Made by a program: the position numbers and the translations under genes
Shown here: one piece after another, positions 18,741 through 29,671 of the stretch
Layout: the number at the start of each line of letters is the position of its first letter
Numbering within the stretch: position 1 is the stretch's first letter
The notes under the pieces: generated by a model
Databases searched by the model: none
Seen by the model: the letters and a program-made list of their open reading frames with translations, nothing else
Told to the model about the DNA's origin: nothing
Assembly (NCBI GenBank): GCA_020201095.1
Contig: JAIVHM010000164.1
Span: forward strand, 9,660-50,522
Reading direction: 5' to 3'
Length of the DNA stretch: 40,863 bases
From: Halomonas sp.
Lineage (GTDB): Bacteria; Pseudomonadota; Gammaproteobacteria; Pseudomonadales; Halomonadaceae

Positions 18741-19893
18741 ATGAAAATCATCATTCTCGGCGCCGGCCAGGTCGGCGGCACCCTTGCGGAGCACCTTGCC
18801 CGTGAGGAAAACGACATCACCGTCATCGATACCGATGCCAAAAAACTGCACGAGCTGCATACCAAGCTCGACATTCGCACGGTGACCGGCGCGGGTTCCT
18901 ACCCCATCGTGCTGCGTCAGGCAGGCTGTGAAGACGCCGACATGCTGATTGCGGTCACCAGCAGCGACGAAATCAACATGATCGCCTGCCAGGTGGCCCA
19001 TACCTTGTTCCGCACCCCGACAAAAATCGCCCGGGTGCGCGCTACCGCCTACCTGACCCGCAAGGGGCTCTTCGCCCACGAAGCGATTCCCATCGACGTA
19101 CTGATCAGCCCCGAGCAGGTGGTCACCGACCACGTCCGCCGCCTGATCGAGCACCCCGGCGCGCTGCAGGTGCTGGAATTTGCCGGCGGGCTTGTGCAAC
19201 TGGTTGCAGTCAAAGCCTTTTACGGCGGCCCGCTGGTGGGCCAGGACCTGGCTTTTCTACGCCGTCACATGCCCAATGTAGATACCCAAGATTATCGAGC
19301 ACAGCCTGGAGCGCTGCACCACGCTCTCCGAGCGGCTCGACCGCACCGTCGTGCTGCATGGCAGCGCAACCAGTAAGCGGCTGCTTGAAGAAGAAAATAT
19401 CGAAGACTGTGATATTTTTTGCGCGCTGACCAACGACGACGAAGTCAATATCATGTCGTCACTGCTGGCCAAGCGGATGGGCGCCAAAAAGGTCCTGACG
19501 CTGATCAACAACGCCGCCTATGTCGACCTGGTTCAGGGCGGCGAGATCGATATTGCCATTTCCCCCCAGCAGGCGACGATCGGCAGCCTGCTGACCCACG
19601 TGCGCCGGGGCGACATCGTCAACGTCCACTCGCTACGCCGCGGCGCCGCCGAAGCCATCGAGGCCATCGCCCATGGCGATAAGCAGTCATCAAGAGTAGT
19701 CGGGCGGACCATTCGCGAGATCGACCTGCCCGACGGCACCACCATCGGCGCGATCGTTCGCGGTAAAGAGGTGATGATCGCCCACGACCACATCGTGGTG
19801 GAAAGCGGCGACCACGTGATCTTGTTCGTCATCGACAAGCGGCGCATTCGCGACGTAGAGCGCTTGTTCCAGGTAGGGCTGACGTTCTTCTGA
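18741..19893 (+). pseudogene. trkA: Trk potassium uptake regulator TrkA with a frameshifting internal deletion
   Basis: TrkA (about 457 residues) is the NAD(H)-binding peripheral subunit of Trk K+ channels, with two RCK halves. Here the first half is intact from [20 protein letters not shown] to RRHMPNVDT (about residue 181). The reading frame then switches: from about 19286 the +1 frame encodes [19 protein letters not shown] and continues normally through [18 protein letters not shown] and [19 protein letters not shown] to the genuine end [12 protein letters not shown]. About 70-75 codons, including the second GxGxxG nucleotide-binding loop, are missing and the two halves are out of frame. 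An ATG at 19351 could start a C-terminal fragment. trkH follows 49 bp later. Confidence 0.88.
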
Positions 19894-23491: not shown

Positions 23492-23523
23492 TTGTAAACC
23501 TGTATCTTATCCTTAGTTGACAC
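23492..23523 (+). promoter_or_regulatory. BirA-type operator 1 upstream of bioB
   Basis: TTGTAAACC-N14-AGTTGACAC. The left half is a perfect match to the known BirA half-site (TTGTAAACC, N14-16, GGTTTACAA); the right half matches 6 of 9. It overlaps a possible -35 box (TTGACA, 23517-23522), as expected for a repressor that blocks RNA polymerase when biotinoyl-AMP is plentiful. Confidence 0.65.
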
Positions 23524-23546
23524 TTGAACCGAGTCGCCGATAAAGT
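23517..23546 (+). promoter_or_regulatory. Predicted promoter of the biotin operon
   Basis: TTGACA at 23517-23522 (consensus -35), a 17-base spacer, then ATAAAG at 23540-23545, a weak -10. It sits between the two BirA-like boxes, about 35 bp before the bioB start. Prediction by eye only. Confidence 0.45.
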
Positions 23547-23547
23547 C

Positions 23548-23579
23548 TCGTCAACTTCCAAAAGAATATAGGTTTACCT
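23548..23579 (+). promoter_or_regulatory. BirA-type operator 2 overlapping the bioB ribosome site
   Basis: TCGTCAACT-N14-GGTTTACCT: the mirror image of operator 1, with the degenerate half first and the good half (GGTTTAC, 23571-23577) next to the GTG start. The inner halves of the two boxes, AGTTGAC (23515-23521) and GTCAACT (23550-23556), are perfect inverted repeats of each other. Confidence 0.5.
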
Positions 23580-24563
23580 GTGACCGCCACTGCTGCCAAT
23601 CCCCAGACTGCCGCCGCCCGCCACGACTGGACACTGGACGAGATCAACGCGCTGTTTGCGCTGCCCTTCAACGACCTGCTGTTTCAAGCCCAGCAGGTAC
23701 ACCGCGCGCATTTTGACGCCAATGCGGTGCAGATTTCGACCCTGCTGTCGATCAAGACCGGCGCCTGCCCTGAAGACTGCAAGTACTGCCCCCAGTCCGG
23801 CCACTACAATACCCAGCTGGAAAAAGAGAAGCTGCTGGAAGTTAAAAAAGTCGTCGAACAGGCCAAGGCCGCCAAAGAAGCAGGCGCCAGCCGTTTTTGT
23901 ATGGGCGCAGCGTGGCGCAGCCCGCGGGATAAAGATCTGGTGCTGGTGGAAGAGATGGTTCGCCAGGTCAAAGCCCTGGGGCTTGAAACCTGCATGACGC
24001 TCGGCATGGTCGACGGCGATCAGGCGAGCCGCCTGGCCACGGCGGGGCTCGATTATTACAACCATAACCTGGACACCTCGCCCGACTATTACGGCGAAAT
24101 CATCACTACCCGCACCTTTAGCGACCGGCTGGATACCCTGGCCACCGTGCGCGAGGCGGGCATGAAAGTCTGCTCCGGCGGCATCCTCGGCATGGGTGAA
24201 GACGCCCAGGACCGCAGTGCCCTGTTGCAACAGCTGGCCAAGCTGTCGCCACACCCGGAATCGGTGCCAATCAATATGCTGGTCAAGGTGCCCGGCACGC
24301 CGCTGGAAAACGTCGAAGACTCCACCCAGGCGCTGGCGTTCCTGGCCGGCGCCAACTCGATCTTCTACGGCGATACACTGCTGACCACCGGCAACCCCCA
24401 AGCCGATATCGACCGTGCGCTCTTTGCCAAGCTGGGCCTTCATCCGGAGCGCCGGGAAACCTGCGAAGATGACGCGACCCACGCCCAGCGTCTGGCACAG
24501 CAGGCCGAACAGCACGCCCGCGCAGAACGTGTCGCCGAGCTCGCGGTCGACGCCAGTGTCTAA
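23580..24563 (+). CDS. bioB: Biotin synthase BioB with an internal in-frame deletion
   Basis: 327 residues from GTG 23580 (E. coli 346). A radical-SAM enzyme that inserts sulfur into dethiobiotin. The cluster motif [11 protein letters not shown] is present, and most of the barrel is normal ([49 protein letters not shown]). The sequence then jumps from LENVED to [17 protein letters not shown]. About 33 residues are missing (junction near 24310-24325), including the strand with the RLSAGRE motif whose arginine ligates the [2Fe-2S] sulfur donor. As written the enzyme should be inactive. The C-terminal 30 residues are acidic and Ala-rich. Its stop overlaps the bioF start by 8 bp. Confidence 0.9.
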
Positions 24564-25722
24564 AGCGTGGCGAGAGCGCTTGGTTGATGCCCGCTCGAGC
24601 CGCCAGCAGGCAAATCGCTGGCGGACACGCCGAGTCATGGCAACGGGTGCACTCGACTTTGCCGGCAACGACTATCTGGGCTTGGCCCAGGATCCAAGGG
24701 TGCGTGAGGCCCAGGCAGAGGGCGCACGCCGCTACGGGGCGGGCGCCGGGGCATCGCATCTGGTTAGCGGTCATTTGCAGGTTCACGAGGCCCTGGAAGA
24801 CGCCTTGGCACGCTGGACAGGCCGCGAGCGTGCGCTGCTTTTTTCCACCGGTTATATGGCCAACCTCGGCGTTTTGCAGGCATTGGCCGACGCCGATACG
24901 GCGATATTTCAAGACCGCCTCAACCATGCCTCATTGCTGGATGGCGCCACGCTAAGCGGCGCTCGTTCGCGGCGTTTTCATCACCGCGATGCCAACGACC
25001 TGAACCGCCTGCTCGCGCGCAGTAAGTGCCCACATAAACTTGTGGTTAGCGACGGCGTATTCAGCATGGATGGCGATGTGGCGGATATTGCCGCGCTGAC
25101 CCGGGTGAGCCGGCAACACCGCGCCTGGCTGATGATCGACGACGCCCACGGCTTTGGCGTGCTGGGCCATCACGGCAGCGGCTGCGTGGGCGCTTCTTGG
25201 GGCAGCGCAGAAGTGCCTGTCCTGGTCGGCACTCTGGGCAAGGCACTCGGCACAGCCGGCGCCTTTGTTGCCGGGGATGCTGCACTCATCGAGCATATCA
25301 CCCAGTTTGCCCGCAGCTATGTGTACACCACCGCCCAACCCCCCAGCATTGCCGCCGCAACGCTTAAAGCGTTGGAGATTGTTCAGGGTGAACCCGAACA
25401 CCGCGACCATCTCAATGCCAACATCGCTTACTTCCGCCGCGAGGCGTTGCAGCTGGGACTGCCGCTTGGCGCGTCGTCCACCCCGATTCAGCCACTGCTG
25501 CTGGGCAGCGAAATCCGCACCCTCGCCTGGTCGGCAACGCTTGCCAAGCACGGCTTACAGGTCGGCGCGATTCGTCCGCCCACGGTTGCCAACGGTGAGG
25601 CGCGCCTGCGAATCACGCTCAGCGCCCGCCACACCCGCAGTGACATCGATCGTTTACTGGACGGCTTAAAGGTCTGCCAGCGCGAGGAGGCAAGATGCCA
25701 CGCCCACCTTCACAACGCCTAG
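24556..25722 (+). CDS. bioF: 8-amino-7-oxononanoate synthase BioF
   Basis: 388 residues from the GTG at 24556, which gives the family start SKAWRERL and overlaps bioB by 8 bp; no upstream extension resembles BioF. A PLP enzyme that condenses pimeloyl-ACP with L-alanine. Visible: [33 protein letters not shown] (cofactor Asp and His) and [11 protein letters not shown] with the PLP lysine. Complete (E. coli 384). Confidence 0.95.
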
Positions 25723-26423
25723 TATTGCTCTCGGGCTGGGGCATTGATCAACGCATCTGGCAGCCACTCGAGAGCTGTTGGCCCGCGTCTGTCGAAGCCC
25801 ACGCCGTTGACTGGCCGGGCTACGGCGATATGCCTGCCCTGCCCGACAACGCCACGCTTGACCAGCTGGCCAGCACCATTGCCGAACAACTGCCCATTGA
25901 TGCCATTTGGGTCGGCTGGTCGCTGGGCGGGCTACTGGCGACGGCGCTGCTTGATTATCTCCCCGCACCGCGCGGTTTGATTCTTATCGGCGCGGGCAAG
26001 CGGTTTTACAGCGATGATGGCGTCACCTGGTCAGAACTTGCCAGTTTTCGCCGCGCCTTTGCCCGTGAGCCACACGCCACCTGGCGACACTTTTTGCGCT
26101 GGCAAGCGCAAGGCGAACCCAACGCCCGCCAAGCCCACCGACAGCTGCAAGCACTTCTGGGTGATACCCCCAGCGCCAACCACAGCACGCTGGCCCTGGG
26201 GCTTGATTGGCTTGCCACCCTCGATAACAGCCAACGTCTACACACTGCCCCCTGCCCGGTGACGCGCTTGGTCGGCGAGCACGACCCGCTGGTCAGCACA
26301 TCGGCTCGTGACGAGGCAGCAACGCTAGCAAATGTCGGGCATTGCCCGATGCTCTCCCAGCCCGTTCAACTGGCTGAGTCACTCGCAACGCAGGCGGCGC
26401 TTGCCGTTAAGGAGCGAGCATGA
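25695..26423 (+). CDS. bioH: Pimeloyl-ACP methyl ester esterase BioH
   Basis: 242 residues (E. coli 256). An alpha/beta hydrolase that cleaves pimeloyl-ACP methyl ester, ending the BioC-BioH pimelate route. The triad is visible: nucleophile in GWSLGG (about residue 77), Asp in GEHDPLV (about 196) and His in GHCPML (about 218). ATG 25695 has GAGGAGG 5 bp upstream and lies 28 bp inside bioF. It overlaps bioC by ATGA. Confidence 0.93.
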   Translation: MPRPPSQRLVLLSGWGIDQRIWQPLESCWPASVEAHAVDWPGYGDMPALPDNATLDQLASTIAEQLPIDAIWVGWSLGGLLATALLDYLPAPRGLILIGAGKRFYSDDGVTWSELASFRRAFAREPHATWRHFLRWQAQGEPNARQAHRQLQALLGDTPSANHSTLALGLDWLATLDNSQRLHTAPCPVTRLVGEHDPLVSTSARDEAATLANVGHCPMLSQPVQLAESLATQAALAVKERA

Positions 26424-27208
26424 GCACGACCGCCACCCCGCCACAGTCAGCCAACTGGCAGGCAAGCGTCGCGCATGCGTTTTCCCGCGCGGCCCCGCGT
26501 TACGACGCCCTGGCAGGCGCCCAGCGGCATATCGGCGACACCCTTTGGAGCACCTTACCTGGCAGGGCAAGCCAAGTGCTGGATCTTGGCTGCGGCACCG
26601 GTTACTGGACACATCGATTAGCCCAGCGTTACCCCGACGCCCAGCTAACGGGGCTGGATATTGCGCCCGGCATGCTCGCCCAAGCCCAGGCGTGCTATGG
26701 GCCCCGCATTCGTTGGCAACTGGGTAATGCCGAGGCGCTCCCCTTTGCCGCAGAAAGGTTTGATCTGGTGTTTTCCAACCTGGCGATTCAGTGGTGCCGC
26801 GATATTGGCATGGTGATGAACGAACTCCAGCGGGTACTTGCACGCGGGGGCCAGGCGCACCTCACGACGCTACTGCCCGGCACGCTGGTTGAGGTCGCCC
26901 ATGCCTGGCAGCGCCCGGAGGCGCTATTGCAGACACCCGACCGGAATGAACTGGTGCGCGCCATCGAGCACAGCGGGCTGACGCCTATTCATCAGCATGC
27001 CGAGCGGCGCACCTTCCACTACCCCGACCTGAACGCCGTGATGGCCTCCATCAAGGGCGTCGGCGCTCAGGTCTCAAGGCCCCACGCCCGGCGGCTGACG
27101 CGTCGCGAGCTGCAGACTGCCCGCGAGCGTTTTGAAACGCTGCGTGAGCCCCAAGGCCTGCCCCTCAGCTACCAGTGTCTTACCCTGCACCTGGAAAAAC
27201 CGTTATGA
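26420..27208 (+). CDS. bioC: Malonyl-ACP O-methyltransferase BioC
   Basis: 262 residues (E. coli 251). A SAM methyltransferase that caps malonyl-ACP so that fatty-acid enzymes can build the pimeloyl chain. Visible: FSRAAPRYDALAGAQRHIG at the N-terminus, SAM loop LDLGCGTGYWT, LDIAPGML, and FDLVFSNLAIQWC. AAGGAG lies just before the ATG. The gene overlaps bioH and bioD by ATGA on either side, so the operon is translationally coupled. Confidence 0.94.
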   Translation: MSTTATPPQSANWQASVAHAFSRAAPRYDALAGAQRHIGDTLWSTLPGRASQVLDLGCGTGYWTHRLAQRYPDAQLTGLDIAPGMLAQAQACYGPRIRWQLGNAEALPFAAERFDLVFSNLAIQWCRDIGMVMNELQRVLARGGQAHLTTLLPGTLVEVAHAWQRPEALLQTPDRNELVRAIEHSGLTPIHQHAERRTFHYPDLNAVMASIKGVGAQVSRPHARRLTRRELQTARERFETLREPQGLPLSYQCLTLHLEKPL

Positions 27209-27842
27209 ACACATTCTTTGTTACTGGCACTGACACCGATGCGGGCAAAACGCTGGTGACCAGCACCCTGCTCGCGACTGCCAGCGCGCAAGGGCTTACC
27301 ACGCTGGGCTTGAAGCCGGTCGGCCGCCCGTCAGTTACGCAACGGTCAATCCCTGGGCGTTCGAGCCCGCCATTGCGCCGCACTTGGCCGCAAGCGAGGC
27401 GGGGCAAGCGCTTAAGGTTAGCGACATCGTGGCAACACTTGGCGCGACCCTTGCGCAAACGCAACGAGACCTGACCCTGATCGAAGGCGCGGGCGGCTGG
27501 CGGGTACCGCTCAACGACCGCGAGGATTTTTGCGCTATTCCCCGCCTCATGCGCCTGCCGGTGATTCTGGTGGTCGGCCTGAAGCTGGGCTGTCTTAACC
27601 ATGCCAGACTCACCGCCGAGGCCATTCTCGCCGACGGCCTGACGCTTGCGGGCTGGGTGGGCAGCGTGGTCGACCCGGCGTTTGCCGCTGAGTCGAACCG
27701 CTTTGCTGCCAACCTTGACGTGCTCAAGCGAACCTTACCGGCTCCCTGCCTGGGCGTTATCCCGCAACTCGCACAGCCGTCGCCGGAAACCGCACAGCTT
27801 TACCTTTGCCTGCCGCCGTTACGCACACTGGAGACCCTATGA
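27205..27842 (+). pseudogene. bioD: Dethiobiotin synthetase BioD with a frameshifting internal deletion
   Basis: The start MNTFFVTGTDTDAGKTLVTS carries an intact P-loop and leads to TTLGLKPV. The frame is then lost: from about 27330 another frame encodes VSYATVNPWAFEPAIAPHLA and continues with LIEGAGGWRVPLND to the natural stop at 27840-27842, which overlaps bioA. About 30 codons after GLKPV are missing; they include the conserved region with substrate contacts. The first frame continues only as unrelated residues to 27474. An ATG at 27384 could start a C-terminal fragment without P-loop. BioD makes the ureido ring of dethiobiotin with ATP and CO2. Confidence 0.87.
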
Positions 27843-29671
27843 CCTCGCCTGTCTGGCATCCCTATGCCGATCTCAAACATCAAACGCCGGCGCCCAAGGT
27901 GGTGGGCGGTGACGGCGCTCACTTTGTACTTGAGAGCGGTGAACGCCTGCTGGATGCCACCTGCTCCTGGTGGTGCATGATTCACGGCTACGCCCACCCG
28001 CGCCTGGTGGCGGCCATTCGCGAGCAGGCCGGTGAGCTGTGCCACGTGATGCTCGGCGGCCTCACCCACGAGCCCGCCGATCGCCTGGCGCGCGAGCTGG
28101 TGCGCATCACCCCCGCTGGGCTTAACCACGTGTTCTATTCCGACAGCGGCTCGGTGGGCATGGAAGTGGCGATGAAAATGGCCTTGCAGTATCAGGTGCT
28201 CACCGGCAACCCCGGCAAGCGCAAGATGCTATCGCTGATGAAGGCCTATCACGGCGACACCACCGGCTGCATGGCGGTGTGCGACCCGGAAGAAGGCATG
28301 CACGGTCTGTTTACAGGCCTGCTGCCCCAGCACCATTTTGCCCCGGCACCCAACGCCCCTTATGACGCCACTGCTGAGCAGGTCGAACACGATCTTAGCG
28401 CCCTGCGTGAGGTGCTTGAACGCCACCATGATGAGATCGCCGCGCTTCTGATGGAGCCGCTTTTACAGGCCGCGGGCGGGCTCAATATGACCTCGCCGGA
28501 CTATATACTGGGTGCCAGGGCACTGTGCGATGAGTTTGGCGTACTGCTGATTTTCGACGAAGTGGCCACCGGCTTTGGCCGCACCGGCAAGCTGTTTGCC
28601 GCCGACCACGCGGGGGTTACGCCGGATATCATGGTGCTCTCCAAAGGCTTGACCGGCGGTTATCTAGGCCATGCCGCGACGCTTGCCACGGATCGCGTTC
28701 ACGACGCCTTTATCGGCGACAGCGAGCACCACGCCTTTATGCACGGGCCGACATTTATGGGCAACCCGCTGGCTTGTCGCGTGGCGCTTGAAAGCCTGCG
28801 GGTGTTCGAGGAAGAGGATTACCTTGGCAAGATCACAACGCTTAACCAATTACTGCGCCGCGAGCTTCTGGATGACCGGGCGCTCAACGCGCACCCAGCC
28901 GTGGCTGATGTTCGCGTACTTGGCGCTACAGCGGTGATTGAAGCGCACGCCGCAGAAGAACTGAAAGGCGTGGCAAGCTTCGCCCGCGAACGCGGCGTCT
29001 GGCTGCGCCCCATCGGCCGCTGGCTGTATACCATGCCCGCCTACATTACTTCCGAAACGGAGATGGTGAAGATTACTGACGTTATGAAGGCATGGTTTTT
29101 CGAAAGCTCAAGGCAGCATCAAATTACCCTGCTTGCGCCACTGGTTGACCAGCGCGGGGACGCCTTCGCCGGCGGTGGTGTTAATGGCCACTACCAGGAA
29201 AAAATCCGCTTGGCCTGCGATCTCGCAGGCGTCTTCAAACAGCGGTACCGATTCACCAAACCAGACAACGTCCGGGCGCAGTTGGCTGCCCTTATCGCAG
29301 ATATCTCCCAGCTCAATACCGCCTTTGGGAAGTGGATAACGCAGCCGGGGATCCACTGTAGAACGCGCTTTAAGGATTTCACCGTGCAGGTGCAAGACGT
29401 GGCGCGACCCTGCCCGCTCATGCAGATCATCAATGTTTTGGGTAATCACGCTGACCTTGAAGCCCTCCTGCTCAAGCGCAGCCAGCGCTTTATGGGCCGC
29501 ATTGGGCTTGGCGCGACGAATCTGATCTCGGCGCTGATTATAAAACCCCAGTACCCGCTCGGGATCGTGCCGCCAGCCTTCCGGCGTCGCCACCTCCTCT
29601 ACCGGGTGCTCTTCCCACAGGCCGTCACTGGCGCGAAAGGTTTTTATCCCGCTCTCGACGCTGATACCTGA
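27839..29671 (+). CDS. bioA: Adenosylmethionine-8-amino-7-oxononanoate aminotransferase BioA; stop codon lost
   Basis: Homology covers 27839 to about 29101 (421 residues; E. coli 429): WHPYADLKHQTP, CSWWCMIHGYAHP, FYSDSGSVGMEVAMKMA, KAYHGDTTG, LLIFDEVATGFGRTG, SKGLTGGYLGH with the PLP lysine, HGPTFMGNPLAC, and the end YTMPAYITSETEMVK...MKAWF. No stop follows; the frame runs on for about 190 codons through the complement of the cobB gene to 29671. That extension has no biological meaning, so the natural stop and the intergenic segment were probably removed. BioA converts KAPA to DAPA with SAM as amino donor. ATG overlaps the bioD stop. Confidence 0.9.
   Translation: MTSPVWHPYADLKHQTPAPKVVGGDGAHFVLESGERLLDATCSWWCMIHGYAHPRLVAAIREQAGELCHVMLGGLTHEPADRLARELVRITPAGLNHVFYSDSGSVGMEVAMKMALQYQVLTGNPGKRKMLSLMKAYHGDTTGCMAVCDPEEGMHGLFTGLLPQHHFAPAPNAPYDATAEQVEHDLSALREVLERHHDEIAALLMEPLLQAAGGLNMTSPDYILGARALCDEFGVLLIFDEVATGFGRTGKLFAADHAGVTPDIMVLSKGLTGGYLGHAATLATDRVHDAFIGDSEHHAFMHGPTFMGNPLACRVALESLRVFEEEDYLGKITTLNQLLRRELLDDRALNAHPAVADVRVLGATAVIEAHAAEELKGVASFARERGVWLRPIGRWLYTMPAYITSETEMVKITDVMKAWFFESSRQHQITLLAPLVDQRGDAFAGGGVNGHYQEKIRLACDLAGVFKQRYRFTKPDNVRAQLAALIADISQLNTAFGKWITQPGIHCRTRFKDFTVQVQDVARPCPLMQIINVLGNHADLEALLLKRSQRFMGRIGLGATNLISALIIKPQYPLGIVPPAFRRRHLLYRVLFPQAVTGAKGFYPALDADT

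Follow-up and report, generated by a model that had tools for sequence, protein, structure and literature searches.

Two BirA-type operators at the bioB promoter of Vreelandella and most other Halomonadaceae

BirA and bioO are the classic example of a bifunctional enzyme-repressor that acts on a single operator. The bioB promoter analyzed here carries two BirA-type operators, one over the -35 element and one over the predicted transcription start, and this pair is conserved in most sampled Halomonadaceae. By far the best reading of the arrangement, and in our view a very probable one given the sites and their position, is that two BirA dimers, located at -45 and +11, would block the same promoter. 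The tandem operators are a variant within a known system.

Results

Two BirA-type boxes at the bioB promoter

The published BirA consensus is TTGTAAACC-N14/15-GGTTTACAA (PMC545781), and the consensus used here goes back to the BirA sites of RegPrecise and of Rodionov et al. 2002, as cited in PMC545781 and PMC4016012. Inverted repeats matching this consensus with a variable central half-site base were accepted as boxes. Box 1 fits, and so does box 2, in which the core GTNAACY/RGTTNAC is exact and some flanking and central bases deviate from the 2002-type consensus. Both boxes have a 14-bp spacer, and they are separated by an inner gap of 24 bp, with their centers 56 bp apart (Table 1). When the whole genome (a draft assembly of 3.04 Mb, 90% complete) was searched for GTNAACY-N14-RGTTNAC, the only exact matches were box 1 and box 2. 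The same two boxes had the top two BirA-like scores in the window (the whole stretch of DNA analyzed, 40.9 kb) with a simple half-site score, and none of 100 dinucleotide shuffles of the window reached the score of either box.

Table 1. Features of the bioB promoter and the downstream biotin genes (window coordinates)
Feature	Position	Strand	Remarks
BirA operator box 1, TTGTAAACC-N14-AGTTGACAC	23492..23523	+	right half holds the -35 element
-35 element TTGACA	23517..23522	+	core of box 1 right half
-10 element TAAAGT, 18-bp spacer	23541..23546	+	TA.AGT conserved in Vreelandella
BirA operator box 2, TCGTCAACT-N14-GGTTTACCT	23548..23579	+	spans about -5 to +27 relative to the predicted transcription start
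Weak ribosome-binding AGG	23570..23572	+	overlaps box 2 right half, 7 nt before GTG; read from the sequence
bioB, biotin synthase	23580..24563	+	TIGR00433, Pfam Radical_SAM/BATS; in-frame 33-residue gap versus relatives
bioF (ORF limits)	24415..25722	+	TIGR00858 above cut-off; true start probably lies past the bioB stop
bioH-like esterase	25695..26423	+	TIGR01738, E 3e-37, below cut-off
bioC	26420..27208	+	TIGR02072 above cut-off
bioD, reading frame disrupted	27200..27842	+	TIGR00347 matched by the C-terminal part, below cut-off; the N-terminal part is in a different frame
bioA (ORF limits)	27806..29671	+	TIGR00508 above cut-off

The first-pass annotation of this DNA had placed two BirA-like operators around the bioB promoter, with box 1 over the -35 element and box 2 over the ribosome site. 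The first two of these statements are borne out, as TTGACA lies inside the right half of box 1. The third applies to this genome, where the AGG lies within box 2 and the GTG start codon of bioB directly follows its 3' end, but it does not hold as a general feature of the Halomonadaceae. The inner half-sites had also been regarded as degenerate, which we had to correct: the middle base of the half-sites across the Halomonadaceae is A, C, or T, with C (GTCAAC/GTTGAC) being the commonest, and it is this commonest form that the inner halves in the window carry. The mirror symmetry noted for the halves is present in nearly all Vreelandella genomes, which have GTAAAC in the outer and GTCAAC in the inner halves, but the other genera of the Halomonadaceae do not keep this pattern. 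To serve as the -35 element, the inner half of box 1 has to read GTTGACA, and in Vreelandella the ribosome site may favor a T-rich sequence in the outer half of box 2.

The biotin operon and its BirA

The boxes are located at the promoter of biotin genes, and since bioB, bioF, bioH, bioC, bioD, and bioA follow downstream, they head a biotin operon, bioBFHCDA. The divergent upstream gene encodes a DTW-domain protein. The genome contains one biotin ligase, which combines the N-terminal DNA-binding domain HTH_11 with the ligase domain BPL and has its best match with models of bifunctional BirA, below their strict cut-offs. In 61 of 61 Halomonadaceae genomes, BirA is present in one copy and aligns over nearly its full length, including the DNA-binding end.

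Conservation of the tandem boxes in the Halomonadaceae

Upstream regions of bioB from 148 Halomonadaceae genomes were examined at a single score threshold, which gave two boxes in 124, one in 22, and none in 2. One of the 124 was a spurious overlap with centers only 29.5 bp apart, leaving true tandem pairs at 123 of the 148 bioB genes, and both boxes are therefore conserved among the relatives. Neither finding that would have spoken against the first-pass reading, conservation of a single box or a BirA that lacks an N-terminal DNA-binding domain, was obtained. The window belongs to the genus Vreelandella, of which 24 genomes were sampled; all 24 have the tandem pair, and 23 have the 24-bp inner gap with a center distance of 56 bp. 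One Vreelandella has a 12-bp insertion. In other genera, the centers are mostly 48–51 or 54–58 bp apart, and in two genomes of one genus box 2 is found about one helical turn (11–12 bp) further downstream. A true pair is absent in 25 of the 148 genomes, comprising nearly all of our genera g5, g8, g16, g17, g18, and g21 and part of g19, and box 2 is therefore dispensable.

Four g19 genomes (G051, G083, G110, and G118; loci L175, L174, L172, and L166) have lost box 1 and kept a strong box 2. This box is near-perfect, of the type TTGTTAACC-N15-GGTTAACAA, and touches the bioB start codon. In these genomes, bioB appears to sit behind another gene.

The promoter and the proposed mode of repression

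TTGACA-N18-TAAAGT is the single promoter-like match in the region and predicts a transcription start at about 23553, in the left half of box 2. On this basis, we infer that the bioBFHCDA operon would have one sigma-70-type promoter with two BirA operators. When biotin is sufficient, BirA loaded with biotinoyl-AMP would bind as a dimer to both of the inverted repeats. Binding at box 1, centered at about -45, would then hide the -35 element, while box 2, centered at about +11, would cover the start site and the early transcribed DNA. Occupation of either box would hinder RNA polymerase, and with both occupied, repression would be expected to be tighter and to respond more steeply than with the lone -35 operator found in related families. 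At high biotin, the second operator thus probably makes for a tighter or a steeper shut-off.

Each box is in register with the promoter

Counted from the first base of the right half of box 1, the best -35 element has an offset of +2 (third base) in 102 of the 123 tandem genomes, and in most of them the -10 element begins 7–9 bp before box 2, even where the box-to-box distance has changed. Salinicola, Kushneria, and two others have box centers only 48–51 bp apart. In 28 of these 29 short-spacing genomes, TTGA[A/G]G, 6 bp further upstream, replaces the -35 element, and a CANNNT-like -10 element is still found 6–8 bp before box 2; this promoter is our own second reading for these genomes. It therefore seems that each box is tied to the promoter and not to the other box.

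This register bears on the question of whether the two dimers also cooperate, in contact over about 56 bp, perhaps through bending of the promoter, in a switch-like repression. Such contact would extend the two-dimer block and does not exclude it, and we regard it as possible but rather unlikely. It would fit the near-invariant spacing inside genera (23 of 24 Vreelandella have 56 bp) and three outliers at 66–68 bp, which are about one helical turn longer. However, the spacing is explained by the anchoring of each box to the promoter, and the two spacing modes of 48–51 and 54–58 bp lie about half a turn apart. The helical phase between the boxes is thus constant within genera but not across the Halomonadaceae, so that one fixed contact geometry cannot be universal. 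In addition, the footprint of E. coli bioO is about 40 bp, which would leave a gap between the dimers. A Halomonadaceae biotin switch in which the dimers cooperate across the promoter, with repression steeper than at the classical single operator and with an altered input of carboxylase acceptor levels into bio control, is a tentative and rather unlikely idea.

The second box in other families and its origin

Among 60 genomes taken from across the order's other families, a single box was found in 51 and no box in nine; none has two. The single box of Pseudomonas, Alcanivorax, and other families is the counterpart of box 1: it has the form GTNAACC-N14 to N16-GGTTGACA, its right half GGTTGACA supplies the -35 element, and it stands without a box 2. 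Because these 60 genomes show one -35-overlapping box or none, box 1 is the ancestral operator and box 2 a lineage-specific addition in the Halomonadaceae that was kept in most genera. Four Marinobacter records (L055, L066, L070, and L105) carry, about 62 bp downstream of the first box, another one of the BirA type that ends just before bioB, and the second operator is therefore not strictly confined to the Halomonadaceae. These Marinobacter promoters resemble those of the Halomonadaceae in having two BirA-type boxes with the first over the -35 element, but they differ in the start-to-start distance of about 62 bp and in a second box further from the -10 element. The second box is absent in some other Marinobacter and is possibly an independent gain.

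On a BioB tree, the two-box character needs 5–6 changes. Within the main halomonad clade, which is well supported (99/96), nearly all genomes carry two boxes; g21 and some of g19 are the exceptions, indicating losses of the two-box state. The Salinicola-Kushneria group is placed with one-box genera, and the deeper branching of the tree is weakly supported. In view of the number of changes and this weak support, we do not claim a single origin of box 2. We also do not claim that box 2 is an inverted duplicate of box 1, as the spacer identity in Vreelandella was 0.41 in inverted and 0.38 in direct orientation, compared to 0.31 after shuffling, which is a weak signal with little orientation preference.

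Box 2 as a relic, and control by RNA hairpins

As related families manage with box 1 alone and several Halomonadaceae genera lack box 2, it could be argued that box 1 is the sole functional operator, with box 2 being a relic or a repeat that arose by chance. We consider this improbable, since the half-sites of box 2 are as well conserved in Vreelandella (0.91 and 0.94) as those of box 1 (0.86 and 0.95), the four g19 genomes keep only a strong box 2, and a second box arose in just 0.15% of trials when the stretch downstream of box 1 was shuffled. Per segment, half-sites and -35/-10 elements in Vreelandella are conserved to 86–95%, and the spacers of the two boxes to 57% and 75%.

That alternative RNA hairpins between the box halves control bioB translation, as the first-pass annotation had also proposed, is so improbable in light of the promoter position, the folding, and the absent covariation that we dismissed it: an RNA of 116 nt that covers both boxes would pair its outer arms (z -3.5), but two inverted repeats always yield such foldable arms; the -35 and -10 elements (23517–23546) lie between these outer arms, so that the predicted transcript begins inside box 2, lacks box 1, and contains only the end of the box 2 left half, the spacer, and the right half; the predicted leader folds no better than its shuffles (z +1.0); box 2 does not generally overlap the ribosome site in the Halomonadaceae; and outside Vreelandella there is no cross-box covariation (outer halves 0.46 versus 0.44 expected, inner halves 0.58 versus 0.59), whereas the two halves of the same box agree somewhat more often than expected (0.62 versus 0.55 and 0.46). 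This pattern of the middle bases fits two separate DNA palindromes.

Comparison with known BirA systems

In E. coli, the one operator has a longer spacer and lies between the divergent bioA and bioBFCD promoters. The system described here resembles E. coli bioO in the inverted-repeat half-sites, in the type of regulator, and in the control of bioB together with other bio genes, but it differs in that a single promoter, heading a unidirectional operon, carries two operators. A comparative survey reported one BirA site per bio locus (PMC545781), and no description of a bioB promoter with two BirA operators turned up in our literature search, which covered a minority of the subscription journals. 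The mostly two-operator Halomonadaceae, together with relatives that have one operator or only the second, offer a natural series in which the contribution of the second operator to depth, steepness, and noise control can be followed. For Halomonas strains used in biotin production, the arrangement implies that the operon may stay repressed when box 1 alone is destroyed.

Disrupted genes in the window

The 33-residue in-frame gap in bioB removes the RLSAGRE motif, whose arginine serves as a ligand of the iron-sulfur cluster in E. coli BioB, and the gap means either that the assembly has a deletion or that the enzyme is dead. Near 19360, a trkA-like gene (18741–19893 of the window) breaks into two frames that overlap. 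Together, the disruptions of bioB, bioD, and the trkA-like gene suggest several small deletions in the draft assembly, or gene decay.
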